Below are positions 19,782 to 63,000 of a stretch of DNA of 64,000 nt, in pieces. A program made the position numbers and the translations under genes. The notes beneath the pieces are model-generated. The model made no database searches and was not told where the DNA came from. It saw only the letters and a program-made list of their open reading frames with translations. Each line of letters begins with the position of its first letter. Within the stretch, counting starts at the first letter, position 1. The DNA is from Apostichopus japonicus (taxonomy: Eukaryota > Echinodermata > Holothuroidea > Aspidochirotida > Stichopodidae): NCBI RefSeq assembly GCF_037975245.1, contig NC_092563.1, forward strand, positions 20,320,594 to 20,384,593, in the 5' to 3' direction.

Positions 19782-22700
19782 GTTTGTACATCTACGTTAG
19801 CCTATCAAGCAATGCTCATGTTAATACTGGTGGCCTAGCCTATTGTCACTTGAAAATTCATACAGGCTATAGCCTGAGCCTAAGCCTTTGTTACGGTGAT
19901 TTTGAGAATGAACAATTCCGTTAACAAAAGAGTGGATTGTTCGAAATCTTAATGCCAATATATCACGATGGTGAAATACCTGCCCTGACGTTGATACCGA
20001 TTTGATACCGATTTGATACGTGTGTAACAAAGGAAATAGGATATTGGGAGTTCTTCGTAGAAACTTATCCCCCTCTTCGAAGGATGCAAAATTGGCTGCA
20101 TATAAAGGTCTCCTCCTGCCAGTATTGGAATATGCCAGTTCTGTCTGGGATCCCCACCAAGCTTTCTTGCAGCACAACCTCGAAAACATTCAGAGGCGTG
20201 CAGCCCGTTTCATCGCTTCAGATTATTCAAGAGAGCCTGGCTCTGTCTCATCTCTGTTACGGGACCTGAACCTGGTGCCCTTGGCAGAGAGGCGCAGACA
20301 AAGTAGAATCATCTTATTTGCTAGGGGCATCTATGGTCAGGCTCAGATCCCTATTGACTGCCTAAGAAAGTCTCTGCGTACGAGTCGGAACATGCATGAT
20401 ATGCATTTCTGCCAGCTGTATGCCAGTACCAATTGCTATAAGTATAGTTTTTTTCCAAATACAATTAGGGATTGGAATAGTCTGCCTTCAGACCTCATTA
20501 GTAGTTCCAGTGGTTCTGTGAATCCTGTCACTTATATCAGTACTCGGGTCAGATCTAATTAATTACTCTCTTGACGTGTGTGTGGTGAGATATTGTCCCT
20601 TTTTGCGGATGTGTCACCGTATCGAAGACGAAGACGAAGAAATTCAGCCATAGCAACTGCAAAAGTACTGTGTGTCTAGGCTGGGCCTATTCCCTAGACG
20701 CATGGTAACTAGGAGGAGGAGAGAAATTTTAACACATTCTCAGGGACAAAAGAAAGCTTACAACTCCAACTGAGGAAAGGATATGGCCTAGCATAGGTCT
20801 AAGTTTTGGTTTAAAAGAATCATATGATATCTTTCTGGCTGTCTGGAGCAAGACTAGTATCAATGCCTAGTTAAGAACAGGTACCGTTATTTTCCGCACA
20901 TGTTACTTCCGCTGAAACAAAACGGTGATTTCCGCAAACAATTTTGTCAGCGGAAAACAACGTTCTTTTCAGCGGAAAGTACCGTTTTTTGGGGGAGGAA
21001 CAGAATGACTTACTGAAATGATTAGGCACATGGAAGGTATATATTTAGGAAGATGGAGAAGATAGGATTTGACTGTAACAGGATAAAATGTAGCTTCAAG
21101 ACTAGATTTAGGATAGCTAAGGTTGTAGCTTAGGCTGTAAGCACTAGCTTAGGCTGTAAGCACAAGTTTAATATTAGTTAAACAGTGCCATCCTTTTGGG
21201 TTGTAGTTTTCGACATGCCTTACTTAGTTATACAGCCATTTCCAGCGAAAATCAAAGATACCGCCTTTTTTTTGAAACCGTCATTACGCGGACCTCAGTT
21301 TTAATACTTTATTAGATACTCAATCCTTCATAACGCGAGCGTCCCTTTGCCCTTTTATCCGCCGACCGCCTCATACTTCTTTAATAATTCCCTAATTACA
21401 AACACCCCAAGCCTCTAAATTATAAGCAGCTTAACTTTTCTGACATGAACTCAGTCTAACCATCCTTGATCGACGTTCTTTGATACTTCCTCATTTTATT
21501 TTAATCATCCTGCCTGAATTTGGTATCCTAAAATTGCGGAAAAAATATAGTGTACAGGTAAGTGAAAAAAGGGTATTTTCCGCAGAAGAATTTTTTCAGC
21601 GGAAAGTACTAACGTATGCGGAAAACAACTGAAACCGTTAAGAACTAATCACATAGACCTAGGGGCTAAAAAATGTTGAACTTTAATTGGTAACTTGTTG
21701 TTTGTACACAAGTTTTAAATCTCCCTAGATATTCAAGGGGCTTTTTAAAGCAGATTTCAATGTTTGCAGTGCTAGGCCGAGTTCATTCCATGTTAGCCTG
21801 TACAATCTGTAGCAATGCATCTCATTAGCTATTAAAGATTGCGCTTGATTATTTACTCTCAAATTAACCAAATAATAAAAGTTAGAAATAGAAAGTTTTC
21901 GAATAATGTTGTTTGCATACATGTACAAATTTTACAAATACTAATGTGAGAGATTGGTTGAAGAAATATTTAAGAAGCAATCAAATTCTTAAGCCTGCAC
22001 TTGTCAGGTTTTCTGATTGCAATCGGTTGCAATCTTATTTAGACAATACTCGGTCGGTTTGATAAAATTGTTGACCAACTTCTGGCAAATTATATTGTGA
22101 ATATTAAACTTAACAGAATTAGTGAAATCTACATAAATACATATTCTAACGAATGGCAAAGAAAATTTAAAAAGTGAGCCAAAAAAATTCATCAGTGTTT
22201 ACATCGACTCCAGAAGCTTGCCTGTCGAGATCAAGTTTTTTTTTTCAACATAATTGCTACAGTAGAAGGTACAAGTGATTTCTAAACTGAAACATGTTCC
22301 TTAAAAAAAATCAAAACACCCTACCAACAAGATTTCAAGAGAAATTTGGCTATTGGTTTGCATTCAGATATAATGAAAGCTATCAATAATATGGAAAAAC
22401 TGATGGGACACTATAATCACATTCCGAGACTGAAACCTGGTTGTGCAATTTAATTGAAATGTACCTTGGTTCCCAAATACAGGTCAACACTACGACTTGT
22501 TTCCAAAAGCTGTTGGACAAATAATTGAAAGTCATGATGTGAAAGAGTTGCACCTGTCATTAACCCAGGGTCTGTGGAGGCATGACAAATGGGGGTATCC
22601 AGTCCGATCATCACCCCCCGGGGCCGAACTGTGGGCATGGTTTAACGAAACACCAGCTAGAAGGTAAGTCACAGCTCTCTTTGTTGTTTGATTGTTTTTA

Positions 22701-25700
22701 GTTTTTTTCTTCTTGCACTCACATTTATGCAGATCTTATGTTTTCTTTAAAAACTTTTGCATTTTCTACATTGTTGTTGAAGTTGAAAATGTTATCTTAC
22801 AACTGTTCATTTGTGTGATCTTTCTGTCACTTGTACTGCAGCAATGCAAACGTGGATAATCTTGTGTATCAATAGTTCCATCATTCCGGCTTCTTTTTAC
22901 ATCACTTTTTCTTCATTGTCTAGGGATCACCACTTTCTGTTTTTGTTGGGGATTTTTGGGGGTTTTTTTCAGATAAGACCAAAACATTTTCAACTCAGTC
23001 TTACAAGACTGAGAATTTTGATCTTTCCTTTTTTCTTTTTTCTCAGTATTGATGAATCTTGGGCAAATCTAGTAAATTCATTATCAGGACTCTTCTGTGC
23101 TTCCTTGAATTTCATTGACGCCACCAACACAGTCGTACCTAACCTCTCCTTTCGCCCATCCGGAGTTGTGAGAGGTAAGTTTGGAACTCTGTAGCAGAGT
23201 TATAGTTAAACCCTCTTAAACATTGATTAATGTCCAAGATCTAACTTAGGTTCATTGGTGGAAACAGTAAGATATGATGCACCAATGCAGTTTGTCTAGG
23301 AACTCAGGGAATTAAGTTAATGTTCAAAGTTTACATCTGCAGTCAGTTTTGAAGGCTCTCTCATTAAATACTACCGTTCCTGTGTACAAAAACTGCTCTA
23401 CGTTATAGCAACTATAGGTACATTTCCCTGACCGAGTCTCAAGTGTAAGCTTGATATAACCAGCAGTTTGTGGAAAGGAATACTCTTCACATAGGACTCT
23501 ATATAGCGACCATTAGTTATAGTCTCAAGAAATGGTCCGAATGTAGCTTTATCTTGTAGCACCCATCCTCAGCGAGCTGACCCCCCCTCTCCCCCCCCCC
23601 CCATCTTTAATCTCTCTCCCTCTTTCTATTCCTCACTTGGTTGTAGAACTGCATGTTTTGTTTCTCTTGTCAACTTTGCAGGAGGCGAATGTCCAGACCA
23701 AGATTCGGTGAGGTATGCCAGTCTACCCAAGGAAAATGTTTGCACAGAAAACTTGACACCATGGCAGAAACTTCTTCCATGTAATTCAAAGGTAACTCTG
23801 CTTTTATGATGATAACGATATATTTATTTTAACTTATGGAGGAATTGTAAAAAACTTACTGATACAGCATAAAATTGCATAAAGGATTTGCATATATTGC
23901 ACATGATTCTTTGAATAAACTCAGCTTTAACCTACTGCAAGGTTTTTTTGCAACAAACACCAATCCAAGTAAACAGTGCAGTTAGGTTGGTGTCACCACA
24001 AAATTCAGACTATTTTACTGGCTAAATATGCCAGTGGATTTTGCCGTTTACCAGTAGAAAAGAAAAGGCACTTGCATTTCTTCTGCCAGTAGACAGCAAG
24101 AACATCAACACGGTAACAGTCGTCAATAACAAAACTGTACATGAACCAAGAATTACCGCTTATTATCGGCAGATATGATCAGGATGCTCCCATGAGCCCT
24201 AGGTACAGCAACTTATCTTTACTCAGTTGTTTGCATGATGATGATCTGAATTCCTTCATCTCAAACTCAGCCGGGACCCTGCAGGATTAATACACTGTAT
24301 GTGGAGTCCCATATGTAACACATCTAGGAAAATATCAGAGACTTTGTGGAAAAAAAGTCACTTTAAACAATTTTATGATTTAGAAGGGACTTTATTGAGG
24401 CCCTGAGTTATCCAGGGCATCACCTTGTTTTGGTATTATGATAATAACGATAATGTTTGCTCGATTATGATCTAAGTCTTTTTCATAATTCTGTCATCTC
24501 GACACAGGCAGGATTAAGTACACTGTTGAATGCCATCAGGCTCTACAATGCGCACTACCACACCCTGACTGTCGACGTCCAACCTGTCTGCCAGTCTTAC
24601 CCAGCATGCACCAGTACAGTACTTCGTCTCACACAGAGCATCAGCGTGGTCTTCAGACCTACTCTGAACGCGGGCCACCAGCAGTGGTCACTGCAATCAC
24701 TGTTTGATAGGCCTTTGAAAGGGTCCTGCCCATTGGCTGTCAAGAGCTACATCCATGTGGACATATCTAACGAGAGCGTAAGTTCGAGATATTCAAATTG
24801 CACCAGCTAGCTGGTATAGAAGCCAGTCTGAACTGGATGTGTCTTGAATTATCACTTCTTAACATTCAAATTGACAGGACTAATCAGTTTGAGAGTAGAG
24901 GACGGATAGGGGAATGAGGGATAGGGGAGGAGGGATAGGGGGAGGAGGGATAAATGAAGAGGGATGTGGGAAGGAGGGATAGAGGAGGAGGGATGGGGAA
25001 GCAAGGATAAGGGAAGGAGGGATAGGGGGATGATGGATAGGGGAAGGAGGGATAGGGGAGGATAGATGGGGGAAGGAGGATAGATGAAGTAGTGGAGGAG
25101 GGATAGGGGGAGGAGGGATAGGGTTGAGGAAGGATAGGAAGGAGGGATAGGGACGAGAGATAGGGGAGGAAGGATGCGGGAAGGAGAGATAGGGGAATGA
25201 TAATGGGAGGGGGATAGAGGGAAGGAGGGATAGGAGAGAGACTTTATGAAACATCAGATTGAACACATGTAATTACTTTATTGTAAGTGGAGGCAGTAAA
25301 AAGTATTTAAATGAAATGTCTTTTGACATGTCAGGCTTTATAGTCTTTTCATTTCTTGAGGGGTAGATCCTGGTCTACAGACATGTATTGGACTACAGTA
25401 GAGATATATATATATATATGTGCAGCAAGATGCAATTATTGAAATATAAGATCTGGGGGATTTAGGATGCAGATTGTACAGGCTCCCTTGCTACAAAATG
25501 TTACAGTTTTTCAATATTAGGATAATTGGAATTCATTCTGGGATATTTCTTTCAGATATCTCTTGACTATACATTAAACCCTCCTCCCAGCAAAGTGACC
25601 TCAGATGATCACGGAAAGGTGGCCAGTTATGATGTTGCTGAGATGACCCAGGGGCGGTCATCCCTGAATATTAAGTTCAAATGGACCTCCAAGGTTATTT

Positions 25701-28700
25701 ACGGTGAGTCACTCTTAATATACTGCTCCAATCTCTAAAGTCTCTTTGATGCATAAAATTAATTTCCATAGATTATTTTCAACATGCTATCTAGAACTTA
25801 AAAAGTTCAGTGTCACATTTTCCCCAATGTTGTATCTCTTAAGAATTATGCAGTTAATATTATATATTGCAATAACGGCACTTTTGTCATTCATGAAAAC
25901 AGTTATTTTCAAGCATTTTTCAATGAGAGAAGAATGTTGTATGTTGTCGTACTTCCTGTTGGGACAACAGAAGACAATGTTAATAACGTAAAATGACTTG
26001 CATCGAAATATGTGAAGTAATATTTCATTTTCATATTTGAAATACAAAATAATCCTTAATTCCAGCAAGATATGTAGGAGTATCATGTTTTGCTGCTGTA
26101 TGTACGGACAGCTTGAAATAGATTTATCATAATATTGTCTCTTTTCCAGCTCAGTTTGTACTCATCTTTGCATGTTATGTGTTAGTAAATCAAGAACTAT
26201 TGCTTTATTGGTCATCATTTTAACCCTAGATATATGCTAGAGAGTAAAATAGTGGTCACCTATACTCAAACTTCTAGCAGCATTTTGCTGTCAACCTTCA
26301 AAACATATTTTGGTTCACTGAGACTCAGACATAAATTGTCTTCTTAACAATAACAACCCCAATGTCTGTGAATAATTTGGCAGTTTAGAACCAACAAGTT
26401 CTTATGAACACCGACACAATTTTGGTTCATTGAGACTCAGTCATAAATTGTCTCCTTGAACACTCCTCAATTTCTGGGATTTATTTGGCATGTTCAAGTT
26501 CTTATGAACACTTTTTAGCACTTACACAAATGCTAAAACCGTGTGTGTCCGGTATCGACATGAACCGATTGATACTGTTTGATGCTATTTGTGGGTTTCT
26601 TTCTGTATACAATCACAGGTAAGGCAAACCCACCGACTCTTCACGCTCACCGATTCATTGCCGGTTACGGACAGGAGAACGGGGGCATAACGTGCATGAT
26701 ATACAACAATGACATCTCCAACGCTGTGGACGTAGTGTACATGGAGACACTCCCCTGGTACGTTAGGTTGTATCTCCACACCATGAAGATCAAAACCGAG
26801 AATGGAACGGATGTTAAGCCAGGTGAGCCTTACCCCCTATTCAAAGGGTGACAAGGGATAATCATTCTATCATGTTATCCAAACGCAGACGACGTATAGC
26901 AGTTTGTACACCCCGAACCATAGTATTTGAAGTGTATATGTATTATGCATGTATGAGTGTATGTATGTATGTATGTATGTATGTATGTATGTATGTATGT
27001 ATGTATGTATGTATGTATGTATGTATGTATGTATGTATGTATGTATGTATGTGTGTGTGTATGTATGTATGTATGTATGTATGTACGTATGTATGTATGT
27101 ACGTATGTATGTATGTATATATGTATATTAGATCCTCCTGCAAGCACCCAAACGCAAAAGACTTATAGCAGTTTTGTACACCCCAAACCATAGTATTTAG
27201 AGGGTATATGTATTATATGACCAAAAATTCATGAACCTTCAGACTTAACCAAAAGACATTAGGACCAGTCCAATGCTGCCAATATATAAATGTCGTTTGA
27301 AGACGTATTTGTTTTTAAAGTTATTTTACGTAATATTACCTTTTTAAAATCTCTTGTTTGTTATCGCCTCTTATTGTACTTTTATAACCTCCTATTGTTT
27401 ATTATATAACCTCCTATTGTGTTTTTTTTATATAACCTCCTATTGTATTTTTAATAACCTCTTAATTGTTTTTTACTTTTTTGTGTTGGTATTTTAGGAT
27501 TATTTTTATTAGGTTATTATTTGTTTTCACTGTATTTATTTCCTTTTTATCGTTTATTGTTTTATTGTGAAGCGCTTTGATACTTTTGGTGATTTAGCAC
27601 TATATAAATGACGCATTTATTTATTATTCTACACAAAACTGGAAACTAAACTATTCACTGAAATAAACCATAGAATGGAGTTGATCATAGATAGCCTTGA
27701 TAAATAGCATTTTGCATCAAATGACCTGTTTTAAAGTAGTCTTCAAAATGAAAGAAAATGAGCCGTTAAGTGAGACTTTAGTCGTAGTAAGTGGGGTTCA
27801 ATTATGGCACACTTAAAACATTGAACCGACAATTTTTTTGCATTTGTTAAATTATAGTTCTTCTCTCTGTGTTAGAAACATACACCTCTATATATTTACA
27901 TAGTTAAACCAAAACATTAACTAAACTCTTGGCAATATCTGCAGAAGCATCCTGAGTAATAATGATGCTGTTTTTCTTTACACCTTTTGGCACATATTAC
28001 TTAATAAATTTACATTTGGACAACCTCAAATGAGTCGAAAAATACCATCCTTTGTTTGAATGCAAATATGATGAGTGGAATAAGAATAATTTTAAGCTAT
28101 AAAGTCAAATAGGTTACTGGATGATGCTCTGATTTGGAAATGCATTTTGAGCCTAGCTTTGCAAATTAACATCACCCTCCCTTTTGAGAGAGAAAAAAAG
28201 GGTATGGAGAGACATTCCGCAATAGAACAGTACAAGTTTGGCTTCCTTCTTCTGCTGTACAGATATGCTACGGTTTGTGCCAGGGCGAGATCGGGGGAGG
28301 CCTTACCTCTTGGAGTTAATGTTCACTTTACCACCAGCATCTGTCATAACTTTCAGCATCCAGTTTGACAGGGCCTTCCTGAAATGGACGGAATACCCAC
28401 CAGATGCTAATATTGGTTTCTATTTAGGGTAAGGGCAGATATTTTACTGTGCTTTTTGTAAAACAGCTGAATATAGAAATGATGGCAACTGGGTTTATAG
28501 GAAAATAATTACCTAACCATGGAAGGTGTTTGATCATTTTGAATTTTAACATCTCCAGTTGTTCAAAGAAATGATCCCTAAGTAAATCGTTAACTTGTGT
28601 TCTGCATCCATGTCACGCACATGTAATAGTAATACTCTGAAAGACGAATGTAGAGTTAACCCTTCACTAATTTTTGATTTGCAAAATCGTTGTGAAGGGG

Positions 28701-42985: not shown

Positions 42986-43269
42986 TCAAAGTTGATGCAT
43001 CTCTTTAGGGAAGATCCCCTTCAGGTCCAAATCGCTCAGTCCATTCTTCAAGAGTATATCTGTCAGTTTGTTTCGGTAATGATCCAAGTCCAGCATGAAT
43101 GAGGGCAGTATGACAGTGGAGGGATCCAAGACCGCATCCTTCTTCAGCCTATCCACGTCCAGATAGGACACTTTACCCAATCGCACCAAGCTGTGGAAGT
43201 CAATTTCGTTGCGGTAGCGCAGAATCTGGAGGACGCCGTCGAGGTAGACTTGGTCTTTGTTGAAACAAC
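42986..43269 (-). CDS. MATCAP: MATCAP exon 4 (C-terminus)
   Basis: Acceptor GTTCTCAG|GTTGTTTC. Encodes CFNKDQVYLDGVLQILRYRN, FHSLVRLGKVSYLDVDRLKK and ends FPKEMHQL before the stop. Confidence 0.96.
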
Positions 43270-46200
43270 CTGAGAACAGCAGTGAAATATGTGTAAAGTT
43301 GACAAACATCGCAAGGTTGTACAAAGATTCTTCTTTGAATTTACAGTTTAAAGGTTTATAGTCTTGTCTCAAGGCAAGGGCTTCTCACACAAATTTAATA
43401 CATTTAACCCATGGTCATTGGTAACTTGTCACACCCACACACCCAAGTGTGCACAATTCAAACAGTCGCTCCTGAGGCACTGCAGTGTGACATATCAATG
43501 CGTCCCATTTTGCAATTCCTATAGGGTGCACCCACAATCCAGTGTTACAAGTTACCTTGTAGGTCCCCATTTATACCCCTGGGTATAGAGAGGCAATGGA
43601 GATATAAAGTGCCTCATCCAAGGACACAACGTAATGATCTGGCCAGGACTTGAACTTCTAATCTTTTAATAGATCTCAAGTTCACTGTCTTAGCCATTTG
43701 GCCATGACGCCCTCCGTACCCATTTAAGCAATATTCAGAGGATACAATTCTTTATCATAAACATAACCAGATTGTTAAGATGTAAGGAAAAAGAAATCAG
43801 ATATCGGCGGGCAGTCAGTCTCGATAGTCAATTCTACAAAGGTAGTCACACAACCAATCAAATTACTACACAAAACCTTGTTATTGGCGGCACTTAGCTG
43901 CAAACATGTAGGATATTAGGAAGAGTTTGAAATAGATATTGAAACTGCCTAAACTTAAAATTGATGATATTTTCAAGTTGAAGTTAACTTAATATTGATA
44001 TATAGTAAAGATGTGAAAATATAGTTTTTTAACATTAGTAGAAACTTTGTTATTTCTAGAGCCACAAATATTCACAGACTCACAAGAACATTGTTCACAG
44101 CTGTAGAAACCTTTTTAAGCCACCAACCAGATTTCTGAATGTAACCCTTTATAAACAGGTGAATACATCTAATTATGATCTAGATCAGAAACCCAAGTAA
44201 TGATCATATTGCGTTAAAGCTGTGTCAAATCCCAACTTAGACAGAACATGAAAATTCACCTTTTTCTTACTCTAAAACGGTCAAAATTCCCAACAATACC
44301 AAACGGCAAAACAATGAGACAACAATAGAGTCCAGTTATGTTGGAGGCTCCTATGTACACTTTATAAAATACATGAAGGCTAGAAACTTCATTTTCTGAG
44401 AATATAATTCTTCTCAAGCCTTACTATTAATTATTAAGTTTAATATTTATAGAGTGAGGCAGTGAAAAGGATGTAAAGCTATCAAAATAAATGTTCCCAT
44501 TCCCCGTACAGGCCATTACCACACGAATTGCTTTATCATTTTATACAACATCCCCCATGCTCTCTAGCTCACCTGGCTTGGAGGTGTCAACCTGTCCTCG
44601 CTTTGCCCTCATGCAGTAGTCCCATCTTACCTCTGGATCCTGAAGGAACCTACCGAGCCTCTCGAAGAGGTCTGCGAACGATAACCGAGAGGCGTTGTAA
44701 ACAGTGAAGTATAGCAATGCCGCCCTCCATAGACAAGGGTCCTTGCGTCCCAGGACGCTGTGAAGGCTGGCGAGACCTTCTTCTGTAGGGTTCAGAGGCT
44801 GGAGGCCAAATTTTCTCTTGCCTTTGCTTCCTCGCCATGGCTGTTGTCTGTTGTTTTGTGCCCTCGTGAAGTGAGTACCTGCAGTAAGAACAAAGATACA
44901 AGCACATTAATATACCGCAACATTTCAACAGACCAAGTTCTGTAATTTGTAACAATCATGGTCACTATATTAGACAATAGTTTAATCAAGAGAGAATTCC
45001 TCCCCCCCCCCCCTTTGCAGAATATTAACGTTTCCATAACTGTAATATTAGCCAATGCAAATTTCAACAACACTTAACTGTACACAGATAATGAGCCTTC
45101 AGTCAGTGATGTAGGCTTGCCTGATTTGCCTAAATACTGTATGCACATTCACAAGTTTAATAATGTGACCAAACTCTAGCTGGTGGCACTTGAGAAGTAA
45201 TGCTTAAAGGGTCTGATGTATAGACCCCAACTATAGCTCGCTATCATGGAAACGTTTCTTGAGATTACGTAATCGACCTGCCTTGGTCATAAAATGACCT
45301 CTTTTTACCAGTTAGTCTGCAACGTCTGCCACATATTTTTTCTTGTATGAGGGTCTTTGTGTGAACGCTGTATGATTAACTACACTGTAGACATGAACAT
45401 ATTTCCACATATTGTTTACACAAAGAGCCTAATGGTGTTAAGAGGATATGCAGGCTAGTTGTTGAGCCTGAGGTCGATTTACAACCGTGGCAGGTTGATT
45501 AGGAAATAACATTGATACATTCCTAGCTATAGTGTGCTACAATTGGAGTCCATAAAGCAGATCTTTAAGTTGTTCATACAGAACAATCTGTGAGCCCTGC
45601 AATGACACCAGCGATTGCAACTGATGGGAAAGGCACTCAGAGTTGTATAAATAGTGGACATTAATATATTATGGAAAACATTTTACCGAATACAACAACA
45701 CAGATTTAGTTAAAAAAAAATAAATGACAATGTTTCATTAACTTTCCATTTACCTATTTCATGTTGTAAAACCCATGTGCCTAGTTATCTCTCAGTAATT
45801 GTTAATTAAATATCCATTTACCTATTTCATGTTGTAAAACCCCTTGTGCCCAGTTATCTCTCAGTAATAGTTCATTAACTATCCATTTACCTATTTCATG
45901 TTGTAAAACTACTTGTGCCCAGTTATCTCTCAGTAATTGTTAATTAACTATCCATTTACCTATTTCATGTTGTAAAACCCCTTGTGCCCAGTTATCTCTC
46001 AGTAATAGTTCATTAACTATCCATTTACCTATTTCATGTTGTAAAACCCCTTGTGCCCAGTTATCTCTCAGTAATAGTTCATTAACTATCCATTTACCTA
46101 TTTCATGTTGTAAAACCCATGTGCCCAGTTATCTCTCAGTAATAGTTCATTAACTATCCATTTACCTATTTCATGTTGTAAAACCCATGTGCCCAGTTAT

Positions 46201-49200
46201 CTCTCAGTAATTGTTAGTTAACTATCCATTTACCTATTTCATGTTGTAAAACTACTTGTGCCCAGTTATCTCTCAGTAATTGTTAATTAACTATCCATTT
46301 ACCTATTTCATGTTGTAAAACCCCTTGTGCCCAGTTATCTCTCAGTAATAGTTCATTAACTATCCATTTACCTATTTCATGTTGTAAAACCCATGTGCCC
46401 AGTTATCTCTCAGTAATAGTTCATTAACTATCCATTTACCTATTTCATGTTGTAAAACCCATGTGCCCAGTTATCTCTCAGTAATTGTTAGTTAACTATC
46501 CATTTACCTATTTCATGTTGTAAAACTACTTGTGCCCAGTTATCTCTCAGTAATAGTTCATTAACTATCCATTTACCTATTTCATGTTGTAAAACCCCTT
46601 GTGCCCAGTTATCTCTCAGTAATAGTTCATTAACTATCCATTTACCTATTTCATGTTGTAAAACCCATGTGCCCAGTTATCTCTCAGTAATTGTTAGTTA
46701 ACTATCCATTTACCTATTTCATGTTGTAAAACCCCTTGTGCCCAGTTATCTCTCAGTAATTGTTAATTAACTATCCATTTACCTATTTCATGTTGTAAAA
46801 CCCCTTGTGCCCAGTTATCTCTCAGTAATAGTTCATTAACTATCCATTTACCTATTTCATGTTGTAAAACCCCTTGTGCCCAGTTATCTCTCAGTAACAG
46901 TTCATTAACTATCCATTTACCTATTTCATGTTGTAAAACCCATGTGCCCAGTTATCTCTCAGTAATTGTTAGTTAACTATCCATTTACCTATTTCATGTT
47001 GTAAAACTACTTGTGCCCAGTTATCTCTCAGTAATTGTTAATTAACTATCCATTTACCTATTTCATGTTGTAAAACCCCTTGTGCCCAGTTATCTCTCAG
47101 TAATAGTTCATTAACTATCCATTTACCTATTTCATGTTGTAAAACCCCTTGTGCCCAGTTATCTCTCAGTAATAGTTCATTAACTATCCATTTACCTATT
47201 TCATGTTGTAAAACCCATGTGCCCAGTTATCTCTCAGTAATTGTTAGTTAACTATCCATTTACCTATTTCATGTTGTAAAACCCCTTGTGCCCAGTTATC
47301 TCTCAGTAATTGTTAATTAACTATCCATTTACCTATTTCATGTTGTAAAACCCCTTGTGCCCAGTTATCTCTCAGTAATAGTTCATTAACTATCCATTTA
47401 CCTATTTCATGTTGTAAAACCCCTTGTGCCCAGTTATCTCTCAGTAATAGTTCATTAACTATCCATTTACCTATTTCATGTTGTAAAACCCATGTGCCCA
47501 GTTATCTCTCAGTAATTGTTAGTTAACTATCCATTTACCTATTTCATGTTGTAAAACCCCTTGTGCCCAGTTATCTCTCAGTAATTGTTAATTAACTATC
47601 CATTTACCTATTTCATGTTGTAAAACCCCTTGTGCCCAGTTATCTCTCAGTAATAGTTCATTAACTATCCATTTACCTATTTCATGTTGTAAAACCCCTT
47701 GTGCCCAGTTATCTCTCAGTAATAGTTCATTAACTATCCATTTACCTATTTCATGTTGTAAAACCCATGTGCCCAGTTATCTCTCAGTAATTGTTAGTTA
47801 ACTATCCATTTACCTATTTCATGTTGTAAAACTACTTGTGCCCAGTTATCTCTCAGTAATTGTTAATTAACTATCCATTTACCTATTTCATGTTGTAAAA
47901 CCCCTTGTGCCCAGTTATCTCTCAGTAATAGTTCATTAACTATCCATTTACCTATTTCATGTTGTAAAACCCATGTGCCCAGTTATCTCTCAGTAATTGT
48001 TAGTTAACTATCCATTTACCTATTTCATGTTGTAAAACCCCTTGTGCCCAGTTATCTCTCAGTATACTAAGCTTGATGTTCATCACCGATCGTCCTTTGC
48101 TTCTTGTCATCAAAGCCCTTGACAACAGATCAGGCGTCATATTCAAGAAAACTTGGTTTTCCAATTTTTCTGCTTTCAGGTAGGAATCGAATCGCTCCTG
48201 AAACTCATGCGGTGCTAGCCTCCTTCCAGCTGTGGTCTCTTCAAATTTTTCGTAACAGCCGTACTTCTGTAAAGCTATATCCATGATCCGCACAGCCTGC
48301 AGGAAGGGGGGAAAAAACAAGAAAATTGACTGTTACATACTGTAAAGAGTTAGACTCCATCGAAAATTAGAAAAAACTTTTCAACGATGAACAAACAAGT
48401 TTTTCTTCCATGCTTGATGATATTATACCTGAGTATGAAATAACATATATACAGTAGCACCAGTAACTACTCATTTCATGTTTCTCATATATCTTTTAGT
48501 TCCAAAGGTACGGTACAATACCATTCAAAATTTACAGAATCACCATCAAGTGACTGTATGTTGTGTAAAGTAACTGCCTTTTGAAGTCCTGTTTTAATGC
48601 ACATATTTACTGCACCAGAGATACATTTCAAAAATTCTCAATGAAATGTTACTTACTTTTACATGATTTAACTATTTACAATGAGGAATGACATGTACAG
48701 TACTAGCCCCATTGACATTTCAAGCAAGGCAATTGATGTTCAATTATGGCAGCATCATTACAAGCAAATAAAAGTGATTCCAACTTTTCTTTTGAACATC
48801 AGCTCTAGTTTGAGTTATGATGGGCTACTGCACTATCAGCACAGCCTCCCTTTTAATTGTTGCACTTCCCAGGCTAGGCTAGGGAGAAGAAATGTTCTGC
48901 TATGAGCCAGTACAAAATTTATAAGAGGAGTGCGACTGTCTACAACTCATCAAATTTGGTTTCGATATGTGAGAAATTTTATGATTTGATTACAGAGAAT
49001 GATGAGGTAACTGCATAATGGCTTCATTGAGTTTGGGTCTCTTCTCACTCTCAGCACAAAAACATGATGGTATGGTGAAAGCCAGGATTACAATATATTT
49101 TTTAATGCTAATTTGTCTGTCTTTTTTTCTATACAGTTTTGTATATTAGCAGGGATCCAGCATGTTACAATACAACGGTCTTGGGAATTTTCACTTTCAT

Positions 49201-49889
49201 CAAAGTTCAAATTATCTCATTTTGTATAATATGTGACCCACCTGTGGTAAAAGCGTATAGGATGCATGATTGTAGCGAGCCAATGTTGATTCGTCTGCTG
49301 GTGTGTCATACACAAAGACAGGATTGCACTTGTATCCACTGGCAAAAAAATTCCTCTTTTCCTCAAGCAAGTTACTAGGCATAATAGCATATATAATGTA
49401 TGGAGACTTCCCCTTTCTCTTGGTAGCTTTGGGATTCTCGCTATTTCGTGAAGTTGTACCATTTCTTCCCTTCGAAGTAAGTTGCTTCGACTTCAACTGA
49501 GATGAAAAAGTATGGAGGCTTAGCCTTATGTCAGTTGTTGACTTCCTCCGGTTGAGAGGAAGGCTTACGTTAGTTTTACTGGTTGATTGTCTGGTGCCTG
49601 TTGTTACATTCGTAGTTATTTTCGGTAATTTTACATTGCAAAATTGCTTTGTTTTATCAGATTTCCTTCTCGGCCTAGATGGAGTTTGGCATCTTGTTTC
49701 CGCTTGGGGGGAGGCCAGAGATCGTCGTGTCGCTTGTGTAGGCCCGTTGCTACGACGTTTAGCCGCTTTCTCTTTACCTTGGTTATCTGGCTCCAATCCA
49801 TCGCTGGTAGCTACTTGCTGTTCCTTCTTGAAAATCTGTGGACCCTTTGCATATGGTATACTGCCAGGTAAAGAGTCAACTGCTAACAT
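42986..49889 (-). CDS. MATCAP: MATCAP (KIAA0895/DUF1704) tubulin tyrosine carboxypeptidase, complete, 4 coding exons
   Basis: MATCAP metallopeptidases remove the C-terminal tyrosine of alpha-tubulin on microtubules. Four exons (1515 bases) give 504 residues, similar to human KIAA0895 and KIAA0895L. The N-terminal ~150 residues are basic and low-complexity, as expected of a disordered microtubule-binding region. The DUF1704 domain starts near YIIYAIMPSNLLEEKRNFF and includes NPVFVYDTP, AVRIMDIALQKYGCYEKFEE, the zinc motif HEIGTH (residues 306-311), NNRQQPW, NPTEEGLASLHSVLGRKDP and GCFNKDQVYLDGVLQILRYR. His306, Glu307, His311 and Glu342 align with the known zinc ligands and catalytic Glu. The start is well supported: TGA lies in frame two codons before the ATG. 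Introns are phase 0, 1 and 1. Intron 2 splits HEI-G|TH and holds a minisatellite made from the exon 2 edge. Confidence 0.97.
43370..43715 (-). mobile_element. tRNA-derived SINE in MATCAP intron 3
   Basis: Read on the minus strand, the head GGAGGGCGTCATGGCCAAAT resembles a Ser/Leu-type tRNA. Box A-like TGGCCAAATGG is at 43694-43704 and box B-like AGTTCAAGTCC at 43647-43657. The body includes CCTTGGATGAGGCACTTTAT and GGGGTATAAATGGGGACCT, typical of SINE tRNA-unrelated regions. The 3' end is approximate. It is in the same orientation as the gene and ends about 100 bases before the exon 4 acceptor. Confidence 0.7.
44573..44878 (-). CDS. MATCAP: MATCAP exon 3
   Basis: Acceptor TTACTGCAG|GTACTC, donor CCAG|GTGAGC. 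Encodes THFTRAQNNRQQPW (second metal-binding His), NPTEEGLASLHSVLGRKDP, CLWRAALLYFTVYNASRLSF and RWDYCMRAKRGQVDTSKPG. Confidence 0.97.
45204..45568. mobile_element. TTAA-type MITE, 365 bp, MATCAP intron 2
   Basis: TTAA at both ends (45204-45207, 45565-45568). Inverted termini TTAAAGGGTCTGATGTATAG and TTAAAGATCTGCTTTATGGA continue imperfectly into CCAACTATAGCTCGCTA. No ORF. Confidence 0.75.
45735..48063 (-). repeat. Exon-intron boundary minisatellite, about 34 x 68/69 bp
   Basis: The phase marker CCATTTACC recurs every 69 or 68 bases from 45746 to 48012 (33 intervals: 22 of 69, 11 of 68). Minus-strand units contain CTGAGAGATAACTGGGCACA, then AGGGGTTTTACAACATGAAA, then TAG|GTAAATGG and an AT-rich remainder. 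The last unit (48012-48063) is the true 3' end of MATCAP exon 2 with its donor, so the array is a tandem amplification of that junction. Three core variants (ACCCCTTG, ACCCATG, ACTACTTG on plus) and three tails form a four-unit higher-order pattern. The 68-bp variant has lost one base in the former coding part. Confidence 0.97.
48020..48296 (-). CDS. MATCAP: MATCAP exon 2 (first half of the zinc motif)
   Basis: Acceptor CTTCCTGCAG|GCTGTG, donor ATAG|GTAAAT. Encodes AVRIMDIALQKYGCYEKFEE through SILRDNWAQGVLQHEIG. Its last 43 bases are the template of the adjacent minisatellite. Confidence 0.97.
48297..49241 (-). other. MATCAP intron 1
   Basis: Phase 0 intron with ordinary AT-rich sequence and no repeat recognised. 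Confidence 0.85.
49242..49889 (-). CDS. MATCAP: MATCAP exon 1
   Basis: The ATG follows an in-frame TGA. The donor TTACCACAG|GTGGGT is phase 0. 216 codons: a Lys/Arg/Ser/Thr-rich N-terminal region, then YIIYAIMPSNLLEEKRNFFA, NPVFVYDTPADEST and LARYNHASYTLLPQ. Confidence 0.95.

Positions 49890-51012: not shown

Positions 51013-51091
<79 letters not shown>
51012..51091. repeat. (AT)n microsatellite
   Basis: About 80 bases of AT with one GT interruption near 51036. Confidence 0.97.
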
Positions 51092-57021: not shown

Positions 57022-60000
57022 CTGTGGTTTGGAAAAAGGACAAAACTTCAATATTACGAAGGTATAAGGTGGGGAAAAAAATCGTTTTCATCTGCTAAAG
57101 TAAATCATTCAAAATTATGAAATTGAAAAATTACGAAAAAACTTATGTTACAGCTGCAGCTTAATAGGATTCGATTCGCAATTGTAAAAATGTTATTTCA
57201 CTTTCCCGGCAAATTTTTGAATGAAAGCTGAATTTTTTGGGCCCTTAAAATTCAGGCAATTAAATGAACTATAAACAATCTATTCCATGACTGTAAACTT
57301 CCTTTCTGGTTTCTGCTGTATTTTCACTCTTGACAGAATTTTCACGTGATAGTACAAATTTCAATTAAAACATAACAACCCGATAAATGGGAACTTATTA
57401 AGACTTTCAAAGGATGACTTTATGAAAGAAAGGATATCTTTGACACATGTGACATTCCCTCGAAAACTAAAAACTCCACACATTTTAAGATGATATCACA
57501 TTCTCTTCTTAAGAAAAACTGCCCTTTTAATATCAAACAGTCATAAGGCCAATTAGATTGGCTATCAGGTTTAGCATGGAGCCCATAAATTCAGCTCTCC
57601 AAAGAAGACAACCAAAGAAAAAAGAGATTGTTCCAAGCAATGGGTGAATGAGATGCAAATGATCTCTGATAACATGTTTACAAGGTTCCATCAACCCACG
57701 GTGTTGGGTTCCATCCTTCATCACCATGTTGTTGATATGATACTTACAGTTGTACATAATTTATAGCACACAACTCATTAGCATAATGCATGAACAGATA
57801 AACAGTTAACTGTGCCCGAACATAACCCGCAAACTCACCGACCAAGTTTACAGTAATAAAGCATTCCCCAGCCAGGAGAGGGCAAAAATGTTACTGCACC
57901 AAATTAAAATGTGGAAGCACAGTCTGTTGTACGTTTAAGCTTTCGCCTCTCCCTTCCATTTATAACAAACTTTTTTCACGACAGATTTTTCAAATCGACT
58001 TGCCTGAAACATGTTGAGAATGCCCTCCTTGCGTTTCTGTGTACAAACTGTATGGGAAAGCCTTTGAAAGTGTGACCGTCTGGGATGGCTTTGCGTATCG
58101 CGTGCTGGAATTCCTCGTTGCCAGCCGTGACCCCCGTTGACCTCTCTAACTCGTACGCCGCCAGTGCTTGATTCAAGAGGTAAGAGAGTTCGTCATCCCA
58201 AACGGTGGTTAACCCCATATCCTGGAGAGATGCAAGACGAAAAAATAAAAAATAACTCACGTCGACAAGCTGGCTGAGTTTGTTAACCAAAATATGCACA
58301 ACCGATCTCTCTTCTTTGTTTTGCTTGCCACGTCATAACGCTACTAAAATACTGCTGAAGGTAGCATTTAACTGTTCAACTTTGAAATGGTTTTATACTC
58401 ACCAATTAGTGACCTTTGAGAGTAAAGAACCAAAGAGGGTGCCCAATTTTGATCGACGGCAATCATATTATGAGCGACATACGGTAGATATTTATGGCAA
58501 TAGGCCATTACATGCTAAATAAAGCTCTTGTTTGTTTGTGATTGTTTAGTGACAATCTGGTAGTTAAATAGCACACCAACATATATGGCATTCCCTTCCC
58601 CTGCACCTTAAAGTGGTTACCTGAAAGAAAGTCAAGCTAACAGTGCAGAACTCAGCTCACATACATGGGCAACATAGGAAACAAAGTTTACAAAGAAGCT
58701 TGCAGTGCACTATTTTGGTGTATTTTCTCTCACCTCGCCCCCTCTTCCAATGCCCCCTCCTCCCACCCCAAAGTCTTAACCCCACTGGTCTGTAATAGTA
58801 GTGCATACATACCTTTCTTTGATCTACCACAAGCGCTCTCAGCTGCAGTTCCAGGTCATTGCTTGCTAGAGACGAGTCCAAGAGATTGGATATTAGAGGT
58901 ACTGGGTGGGGCCACAAAGACTGATTGAAAAGAAAAATATTGGAAATTTGAGCTAAAAATCATTCTACTGGCTTCTCTTTTTTTGTTCAACAGGTAAAAT
59001 GCTCTATTTGTGATCATTTTACAATACATTCTCCATTGTTTCAAGGGTAACATATAGAAATTGTCCAGGGCTACAAAGCATTATCACAACAACATGAATC
59101 AAAAAGTGAAGTCAATAACAGAAGTCCCCCCCCTGGCAATTATTGACCCCTCCCAAGAAACCAAATGAATAATAAATAAAATAATTCCCAAAGCAAGTTG
59201 CTCTCCATGTCTTATATACTGTACCTCTTCTTTTTTTTTACCGAATGATCCCCTCCTAAGAATCAAACAGAGCTCCCCTCCCCCCTCGTCCCCTCCCCAC
59301 CCCCCCCTTTGATCATCATTATCTGTGTTATACATTCAGCTCTGAAGAAGATCCTGCTAGGATCGAAACCTCAGGCCCACTTACTTTTACACCATTTTAT
59401 ACTGAAGAGTATCCAAATATATGTAAGTATTAAAATGTTCATAATTATACAAGTTATAATCTATCTTAAAACAACACGTTCTATTAAACAAGTAGCAAAG
59501 GTTTTGCTACACATATTTAATTTTTCTGTAAATTATGTTTGATGTTGTTCTTAACAATTCTTGCAATCATAAACTAAGAAGTAAGTTTGTCTTCTTTTGC
59601 TCTCCAGACCCTGCCACCATCTTCTCGATTTGACTGGACTCACTCCCAGAGGGAGAAAGAAGAAACAAATCTCTTATTAGTGAGATTCGTCAAGGTTGGA
59701 TAAACTCCACATATTTTGTTGAAGCAATTTGCAATCCTTAATTGCCAGTACATTTCAGTTCTTAGAATTTTGTCTTGAATTTAAAATTGGCTCTCTCGAC
59801 GAAATGATCGGATCGTGACTTAAGGAATCAAATTAAGTCTGAGGCCAAGCCCACAAATCAGTGTCATAGAGAGGCTATAAATCAGACTCTACTTCCCTCT
59901 AAGGTATCAAATTCTGATACATTTAACTTCACAACTTGCCATGTGTTTTTTTTTTGTTAGTATCTTCCAAACTATTTTCCATGTAATGAGATCTATACTG

Positions 60001-63000
60001 GTTCCAACTTTGTTTGAAAGATTCAATTCTTTTTAAGAACAAAAAAAGTTTGCATGTGTCATGTTTCATTATCATTGTTAGGTTTTAGAAACACATGGCA
60101 TGTGTATGTCATGTGAACTCTTGAGTGTGTAAATACATCAACTTGACGGAAACTTGACATACACCCTGAACTGTGGACAGAGGAAGCTGGAGAGGGGTTT
60201 GGAGGAGGGTTGGAGGGAGGGAGGGGTACTTTTTTGTACCTCCTTCGCACCATTTAGTTGATCATACAAATCCAAGTAGCCTGTGGTGTGGTGTGAGAAA
60301 ACTGATCTTTTTTCTTTATTTGACGTGACACATCTTGTATGGGTGTAATAAAATAGGAATGGAATTTGCACTTTCTACACCGAAAAACCTAGTCAGTTTT
60401 AACAATTGTTTTTTTCTTCAAAGACAGAAATACGGACGAAATATTCTATGACGACCGCCAACTTGAAACGAGAGAGCATTAAGGAAAACCAGGGTCCATT
60501 TGTGAATGAGCTACTCTGTGGCTTTCTAACCAACTTGGTTATCCTGCACTTAACTATACAGCTATACTAAACTCAACATAGGTAAAACACACATACGGGT
60601 GAAAAAAGAAGGTGTTCCTAATCTTACTTGACTTGAGGTACCGCAGACTGACTGGATTGCGTCTGGACTCATCGACTTCCACAGAGATTCATCGTGGAGA
60701 TCGAAACAGCAGACGTCTACGTTGTCTGAAGGCTGCCAGAAGAAAATCAATATTCATGAAGATACAGCAAAGTCCAAAGGATCCAACTGAAAACATTAAC
60801 GACTACCGTTTTACTCGGCAATCCTAAAAGGGTCCTACGCCACCAAAACTTTGGGAGAGAATATGATACTTTTGTAGTAATAAAATTATTACAGCAAAGA
60901 ACAGCAAATACTTTGACAGCTCATATGCCATTATGAAGTCACTCACTATAGGGTGTGCCCAGATCAGACCAGAAAATGTTATAACATTGTTTTAAAGAAT
61001 TTTTATGTGGATGTAAAAACTTCACTGAGTGAGGATGAAAATATATTTCTTCATAAAATCCAGTTGGGCCAAGTTTTCCCACTGAAACACTTGACTATGC
61101 ATTGCATTATTAACACAGACAACTGACAGCCACCCTTAATGGACCTCAACCAATGACACACAGCCATAATTAAAATCCTCAACAAGGTACATTTTTTGTC
61201 ACGAAATTGAGGTGTCTTTCACAGAGAATGAGAGTGTTGTAAACACAGGTCGAACAAGGTGTCATGAATAACACATTGTTTCTGTTATCTTCCACACGTG
61301 TTAGTTTTCTGGCTCTACTGGTTCATAGTACTACGGGTCCATGCTAGGTTTTTTTTTTTGTCAGTTCGCTACATTTTAAAGTTTGTTTCATAATTTCAAT
61401 TCTAGATGCTCAGACTGGTCAAAATTACTGCTTCTATCTTAAATTTAGGTAAAAGAAAAAGAAAGGGTGGAACATAGCACACACAAAAAAAAGAAGGTTG
61501 GCTGTTTGTTACTTTGGTAACTACACAGTACATCAACTAATAGAATGATGACCAAACTGAGTTGTAGTATTTGGACAACAAATTGTGGACAATTTGTAGC
61601 AAAATGTATTTATGGATGACAGAAGGAGCTAAAAATAACTTTCATGACATTTTTGGTACAAAATATGAGCACATTGAACGCAAACAAGTGTGACAAATCA
61701 AAAGAATTTAGATTACCTGACAATTAGCAAAGAATGTTCGATGGTTGAAAATACAGCCGATCGTCCTGAATGGGTACTGCGGCCTCGGTAGCTGGACTGA
61801 CGGAGGGTCATCGGGGTTGACTGGTTGATGGATGTACCTATGAGAGGAACATACCAGGTAGTAGCAGGGTAGTGACCATTCTCCATGGTATGATTTAACA
61901 GTGGTACCTAATATCAGGACATTTTCAGGACCGGAGGTTTGTCCGGTTTGGGAGAAAAGTCTAGATAATCTAGTCTACTAAACGTTAGTGAAGTTTTTCA
62001 TCGTTACAGACCCTTACATAGTACAATGTGCTTTAAAAGGTCAGTCTGCAAACTTTCAGGCCTATGAACCAGTATCTTCCATCAGGACTAAGCCACAATC
62101 CATTTATAGACCCCCATCCCTCAGAATCAATGCTTAAATTGTACCCGAGCTGCTTTGGACTGTGGACATTTGATGTTAAAACAAGAACTTTCCATCAGTA
62201 AGCTGTGAAAATCCTTGATAAATTATCTGACTTCTCTGACTGTTTATGAAACTTTGCTTTTGAATGTCGACTACAATACGGTCAAGCGCTCGAAGCTTAT
62301 CTAGTATTTTTTTTCTCTGTGCTTTTGTTGTGCATTTGCTGTAAATGAACATTAGACTAGAAATGGTAAAGAAAACTATTTTCCTCTACTCTACTCACAC
62401 CAATCTTGATCATATTTGCCTCTAATTTCCTACTCAAATTTTCTGCTGTTCAGTTACTAGAACATATAACGATTGAACATGAAAATGTCAGTATTGGACA
62501 AACTGTAGAAACTTGTTTTTTGACAACAAAATGCACTCTATTACAGTAGTTATCTAAATTTTAAATACTGGCATGTAGTAACATGAATGTGCAGTATTAT
62601 AGCGATAAGACTGTTTGGATAACAGATCCGAATAATCCAGGATTAGGGTAACAAATCTAGGGATTAGTACACAAGATACACAATGAATGATATCTTTAAA
62701 TAATACCTGTGACCAGAGAGAGATTCCCAAAACGTGACCAGGCCATCAGGGCTGATGGTGACCACCCAGGTTTGAGCCGCACCTTTCACTTTGGTTCCGA
62801 CGCAGACAAAAGCATTGAGACCAAACCCAAGAAGAAGGTTACATAGTAAGATGGCGTGGTCTTCGCAATCCTAAAGAGGGTCCGAACAGAGAGGGTTATG
62901 CATCACATATCAAAAGTACTGCATCATAAAATTCAAAACAACCTTAAATGGTAAACACGCTAAACATTTCGCAAGGCTTCTTGCGTTTGGTCCGCAGTTT

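Follow-up and report, generated by a model that had tools for sequence, protein, structure and literature searches.

A 34-unit minisatellite with the structure of a mirage at the exon 2-intron 2 boundary of MATCAP in Apostichopus japonicus

Results and discussion

The MATCAP gene

We analysed a window of 64,000 nucleotides from Apostichopus japonicus (contig C3, NC_092563.1, positions 20320594-20384593), in which the gene MATCAP carries, at the end of its second coding exon, a minisatellite of 34 units that each combine exon-end and intron sequence. Genome-wide matching was carried out over the 671,581,487-base, 35-contig assembly. The layout of the gene, four coding exons on the minus strand (Table 1), was read from the window sequence. 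The protein joined from these exons matches human KIAA0895L/MATCAP (7z6s, E 4.9e-102; 7z5g, E 3e-101) with all three exon joins free of gaps in the alignment, and it also matches the Pfam family PF08014 MATCAP (E 6.9e-13); the exon 2 and exon 3 fragments searched alone gave no Pfam match. Within exon 2 the alignment with the human protein is ungapped through LRDNWAQGVLQHEI and on into GTH. Judged by these alignments, exon 2 is a real, conserved MATCAP exon. HExxxTH, which we take to be the motif name of the MATCAP (KIAA0895L, TMCP) tubulin carboxypeptidase family, is present as HEIGTH across the junction of exons 2 and 3, with intron 2 splitting the motif between CAT GAA ATA G at the end of exon 2 and GT ACT CAC at the start of exon 3. 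No second MATCAP gene was found in the assembly: the two matches at E 0.01, among the best 16 candidates scored, were exons 2 and 3 themselves. Sea urchin is said, in a passage of PMC10499314, to possess two MATCAP homologs.

The array at the end of exon 2

Tandem Repeats Finder (TRF) placed the array at 45734-48064 with a period of 69, 33.9 copies and 95% matches, and returned a second period of 275 with 97% matches. Cutting the array at an anchor gave 34 units and 34 splice donors, in line with the initial annotation, which had described an array of about 34 copies running from the end of exon 2 into the intron. That annotation had also taken the true exon end for the terminal unit, and the authentic exon-intron boundary does lie inside the tandem cluster, the last 45 exon bases belonging to unit 1. 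The proposed division of the unit into 43 exon and 26 intron bases was not borne out; each unit consists of 45 (or 44) exon-end nucleotides and 24 intron nucleotides.

The version of the exon part that is found in the exon itself is the commonest, occurring in 18 of the 34 units. The other units carry a one-nucleotide deletion (10/34), a change of GG to TA (5/34), or the deletion together with one further change (1/34). An identity of the exon end with the commonest variant, as had been claimed, therefore holds for the exon part but not for the whole unit, since the exon-terminal copy is a 69-nt variant (D) that accounts for 4 of the 33 units cut, and the commonest is a 68-nt variant (A, 9/33). 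When placed in the exon, the exon-like and GG to TA versions retain HEIGTH, so that the active-site coding sequence is re-created in frame by 23 of the 34 units and not, as first suggested, by every copy. Placing the version with the one-nucleotide deletion (11/34 units) in the exon results in a frameshift followed by a stop, with loss of the active site; the exon itself does not have this frame-breaking deletion.

Purines make up 63% of the transcribed strand of the array. When single units were folded, the intron part of the A and C units formed a 6-bp hairpin just 3' of the donor (ATAGTT-AATG-AACTAT). Units that form it end in GTTAATGAACTAT, for example 47995-47928 and 47721-47653, and the hairpin was not formed after the donor in folded B, D and E units.

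Table 1. Coordinates of MATCAP and of the array within the window
Feature	Position	Strand	Remarks
MATCAP exon 1, coding part (putative start codon)	49242..49889	-	ends ...SYTLLPQ, then gtgggt; ungapped join to exon 2 against human KIAA0895L
MATCAP exon 2	48020..48296	-	277 nt; ends CATGAAATAG, inside the HEIGTH motif
MATCAP intron 2	44879..48019	-	3141 nt, of which ~2.29 kb is array
MATCAP exon 3	44573..44878	-	starts GT ACT CAC (completes HEIGTH); ends CCAG, then gtgagc
MATCAP exon 4, last coding part with stop	42986..43269	-	
Mirage-type minisatellite, 34 units of 68/69 nt	45730..48064 (ends approximate)	-	TRF and cutting at anchor
Unit 1	47996..48064	-	authentic exon end 48064-48020 (45 coding nt) and first 24 intron nt 48019-47996
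Authentic donor	48010..48025	-	AAATAG, then GTAAATGGAT; intron starts at 48019
Last unit, the most diverged (4 private changes)	45730..45797	-	adjoins unique intron sequence; last donor 45753

Splice donors and their predicted products

The donor ATAG/GTAAAT is identical in all 34 units. The donor consensus is MAG/GTRAGT, and the array donor deviates from it at positions -3 (T) and +5 (A), so that it is not the full consensus donor initially ascribed to each copy. Downstream of donor 1 there are 33 more donors at a spacing of 68 or 69 nt, the last of them 875 nt before exon 3. Computed pairing with U1, given as duplex energies and not as a trained splice-site score, was -7.0 kcal/mol for the array donor, compared with -11.9 for exon 1, -11.4 for exon 3 and -14.6 for a consensus donor. 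The stretch of exon 2 and intron 2 holds 176 GTs in all, and only one of those lying outside the array pairs with U1 equally well or better. The invariance of the donor nonamer is not significant evidence of selection (P 0.16, given 12 variable columns out of 69).

Use of any downstream donor would yield an extended exon that holds the intron piece of unit 1 and reads ...VLQHEIGKWIVN before a stop. The extension adds five codons (KWIVN) and stops after HEIG; a functional protein therefore requires donor 1. This stop, codon 99 of exon 2, is present in all 33 extended forms because all of them contain the unit-1 intron piece; it was read out in seven and follows for the other 26. The length of the extension is a multiple of three in 8/33, and the same stop is present in these. 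Coding extension isoforms were therefore rejected.

Higher-order structure and direction of origin

The units are arranged in a four-unit higher-order repeat of ~275 bp. At a lag of four, 15 of 30 unit pairs match exactly, compared with a mean of 4.5 after shuffling, and none of 20,000 shuffles reached 15; when the best lag among 1-12 was taken, the observed fraction was attained by one of 5000 shuffles. Six changes are private to a single unit: the last unit holds four of them, the penultimate unit one, and the sixth lies in the interior unit that starts at 46964. Homogenised units with a divergent boundary are thus seen at the intron end of the array but are missing from the exon end: unit 1 has three identical counterparts among the interior units. 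The variable columns divide into 5/45 in the exon part and 7/24 in the intron part, and slower change in the exon part was not significant (P 0.09).

A genome-wide family of the unit was unsupported, the 34 matches in the assembly among the best candidates scored being the array's own 34 units. Because the last 45 bases of the exon belong to unit 1 and the assembly yielded no other source for the unit, the simplest direction of change would be from exon to array, although later conversion between array and exon may have taken place. We infer both this direction and the age of the array. The initial proposal that the array arose by tandem amplification of the MATCAP exon-intron boundary is supported by these results together with the conservation of the exon.

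Relation to known systems

Repeats of this kind are known from amphioxus as mirages, and the original paper on the Adh mirage is reportedly that of Canestro in 2002. Passages of PMC3087553 describe minisatellite-like tandem duplications of exon-intron boundaries in amphioxus Adh3 and in the globins BflGb6 and BflGb9; the mirages are reported there to be unstable in length, with regular splicing of Adh3 and the globins unaffected, and BflGb6 to show concerted evolution inside the cluster from which the boundary units are excluded. A paper on lancelet PGBD5 (PMC3902484) adds a PGBD5 mirage and cites TnC. The MATCAP array has both structural features of a mirage: its unit combines sequence of the host exon and the adjoining intron, and the authentic boundary lies within the cluster. 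Homogenised units with divergent boundary units, a typical though not defining trait of mirages, are seen at its intron end only. Like the mirage of BflGb9 it copies a donor-side boundary, but BflGb9 has one duplicate; in BflGb6 the acceptor side is copied, and haplotypes contain 6 and 3 units compared with 34 in the one assembled haplotype of MATCAP. The array further differs from the amphioxus mirages in its four-unit higher-order repeat, its echinoderm host, its location at a catalytic-site exon and its lack of decay at the exon end.

The human 6-16 (IFI6) minisatellite reportedly provides multiple splice donors, as Turri et al. are said to have described in 1995. The MATCAP units likewise supply candidate donors; the 6-16 units are said to be ~12 bp long and near the donor consensus itself, which sets them apart. 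Duplication also supplies the splice signals when an intron is gained, whether the tandem duplication crosses a boundary or copies a segment that holds AGGT, and a boundary-crossing tandem duplication gave a new intron in potato, according to PMC4974935. The MATCAP copies, in contrast, sit inside an existing intron and show no sign of a new intron or exon. With exon-intron boundary minisatellites on record for amphioxus in passages of PMC3087553 and PMC3902484, the novelty implied at first is weakened. The kind is already known from the rare amphioxus mirages, and what is new is its occurrence in an echinoderm, at this copy number and at an exon for a catalytic site; we found no report of an echinoderm mirage in the open-licence literature searched.

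Interpretation and alternatives

We favour, with a probability of roughly 0.8, the explanation that the array is a mirage-type minisatellite in which a boundary segment was duplicated and grew in blocks, and that it is most likely a tolerated passenger without a useful task. A segment across the exon 2-intron 2 boundary would have been tandemly duplicated, and slippage or unequal exchange would then have enlarged the array block by block, mostly four units at a time, as the observed four-unit period suggests. The true exon end would have stayed as unit 1, kept by selection on the active-site codons. For a normal mRNA the splicing machinery would have to pick donor 1 among 34 identical donors; use of a downstream donor introduces the stop described above and would give dead transcripts prone to decay. 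The array would be tolerated since splicing settles on the exon-side donor, as has been reported for mirages in amphioxus. We infer this dominance of donor 1 from the amphioxus cases and because a working enzyme is needed.

Several observations weigh against this explanation. Donor 1 is weak by computed U1 pairing. Its accessibility, 0.45, does not mark it out from the other 33 donors (0.16-0.77) and, lying inside their range, was rejected as the cause of its winning. The sequence features examined give no reason for donor 1 to win. Finally, decay is concentrated at the intron end of the array and there is none at the exon end.

The array is probably unstable, and a regulatory role is possible. 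One alternative is a splicing rheostat. Competition between donor 1 and the donors downstream of it would send some of the transcripts into a decay-prone form, and MATCAP output would be tuned by copy number or by the levels of splicing factors. The identity of all 34 donors, the unit-1 stop in every extended form and the near absence of competing GTs (just one outside the array matches or beats the donor's U1 pairing) are in keeping with such a device, but the invariance of the donor nonamer is within chance and amphioxus mirages are reported, in passages of the literature cited above, to leave splicing undisturbed; we regard the rheostat as improbable. There is likewise only an outside chance that the array, unstable and variable in length, sets the level of MATCAP output through its identical poison donors, as a dial that is heritable and perhaps somatic. 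If it did, decay would claim a larger share of the transcripts from longer arrays, and the active-site exon would occasionally be disabled by conversion from one of the 11 frame-broken units.

In a second alternative, U1 drawn to the donor copies in the intron would favour use of the weak donor 1 nearby, or would suppress premature intronic polyadenylation. Donor 1 is indeed weak and adjoined by 33 identical copies, but MATCAP must presumably have been spliced before the array arose, and such redundant U1 binding seems to us very unlikely. An assembly artefact, with copies created or multiplied by misassembly, is hardly credible: tandem repeats are hard to assemble and a single assembly was examined, but the unit versions are ordered, the end unit is diverged and, if the assembly is that of PMC10344927, that report gives 64-fold high-fidelity (HiFi) data of mean length 14.7 kb, far longer than the array, and a quality value (QV) of 48.86.

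If the array is a tolerated mirage, its expected side effects are polymorphism in copy number and the danger that conversion breaks the frame of the exon. The locus would offer a natural competition test, with 34 identical tandem donors of which one yields a working protein, and it raises the question of how the spliceosome recognises where the exon really ends if the donor sequence is uninformative. It also suggests that mirage repeats exist outside cephalochordates and can reach large size.

The array against its genomic background

A base rate was taken from 264 kb, made up of the window and a 10-kb piece taken at 5 Mb from each of the 20 contigs C1-C20. Among repeats with a period of 20 or more in this sample the array is the longest; the next two measure 865 bp, with 2.2 copies, and 550 bp, with 3.9 copies. 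The second-highest copy number is 13.8. At shorter periods, one array in the window with a 15-bp period has 22.8 copies. The window also contains a degenerate polypurine minisatellite of 341 bp with 15- or 29-bp units at 24898-25238 (AGGAGGGATAGGGGA) and long microsatellites, (TATG)n of 190 bp at 26937-27126 and (AT)n of 79 bp at 51013-51091.

Upstream of MATCAP and on the same minus strand are exons of a CEP76 gene at 57976-58332 and 62664-62870 (Pfam CEP76_C, E 1.8e-32; CEP76 peptidase-like domain, E 6.5e-20). An open frame of 181 codons on the plus strand at 20017-20562 gave no Pfam match at E 0.001 and, in our own reading, resembles the end of a reverse transcriptase of the long interspersed nuclear element (LINE) type.
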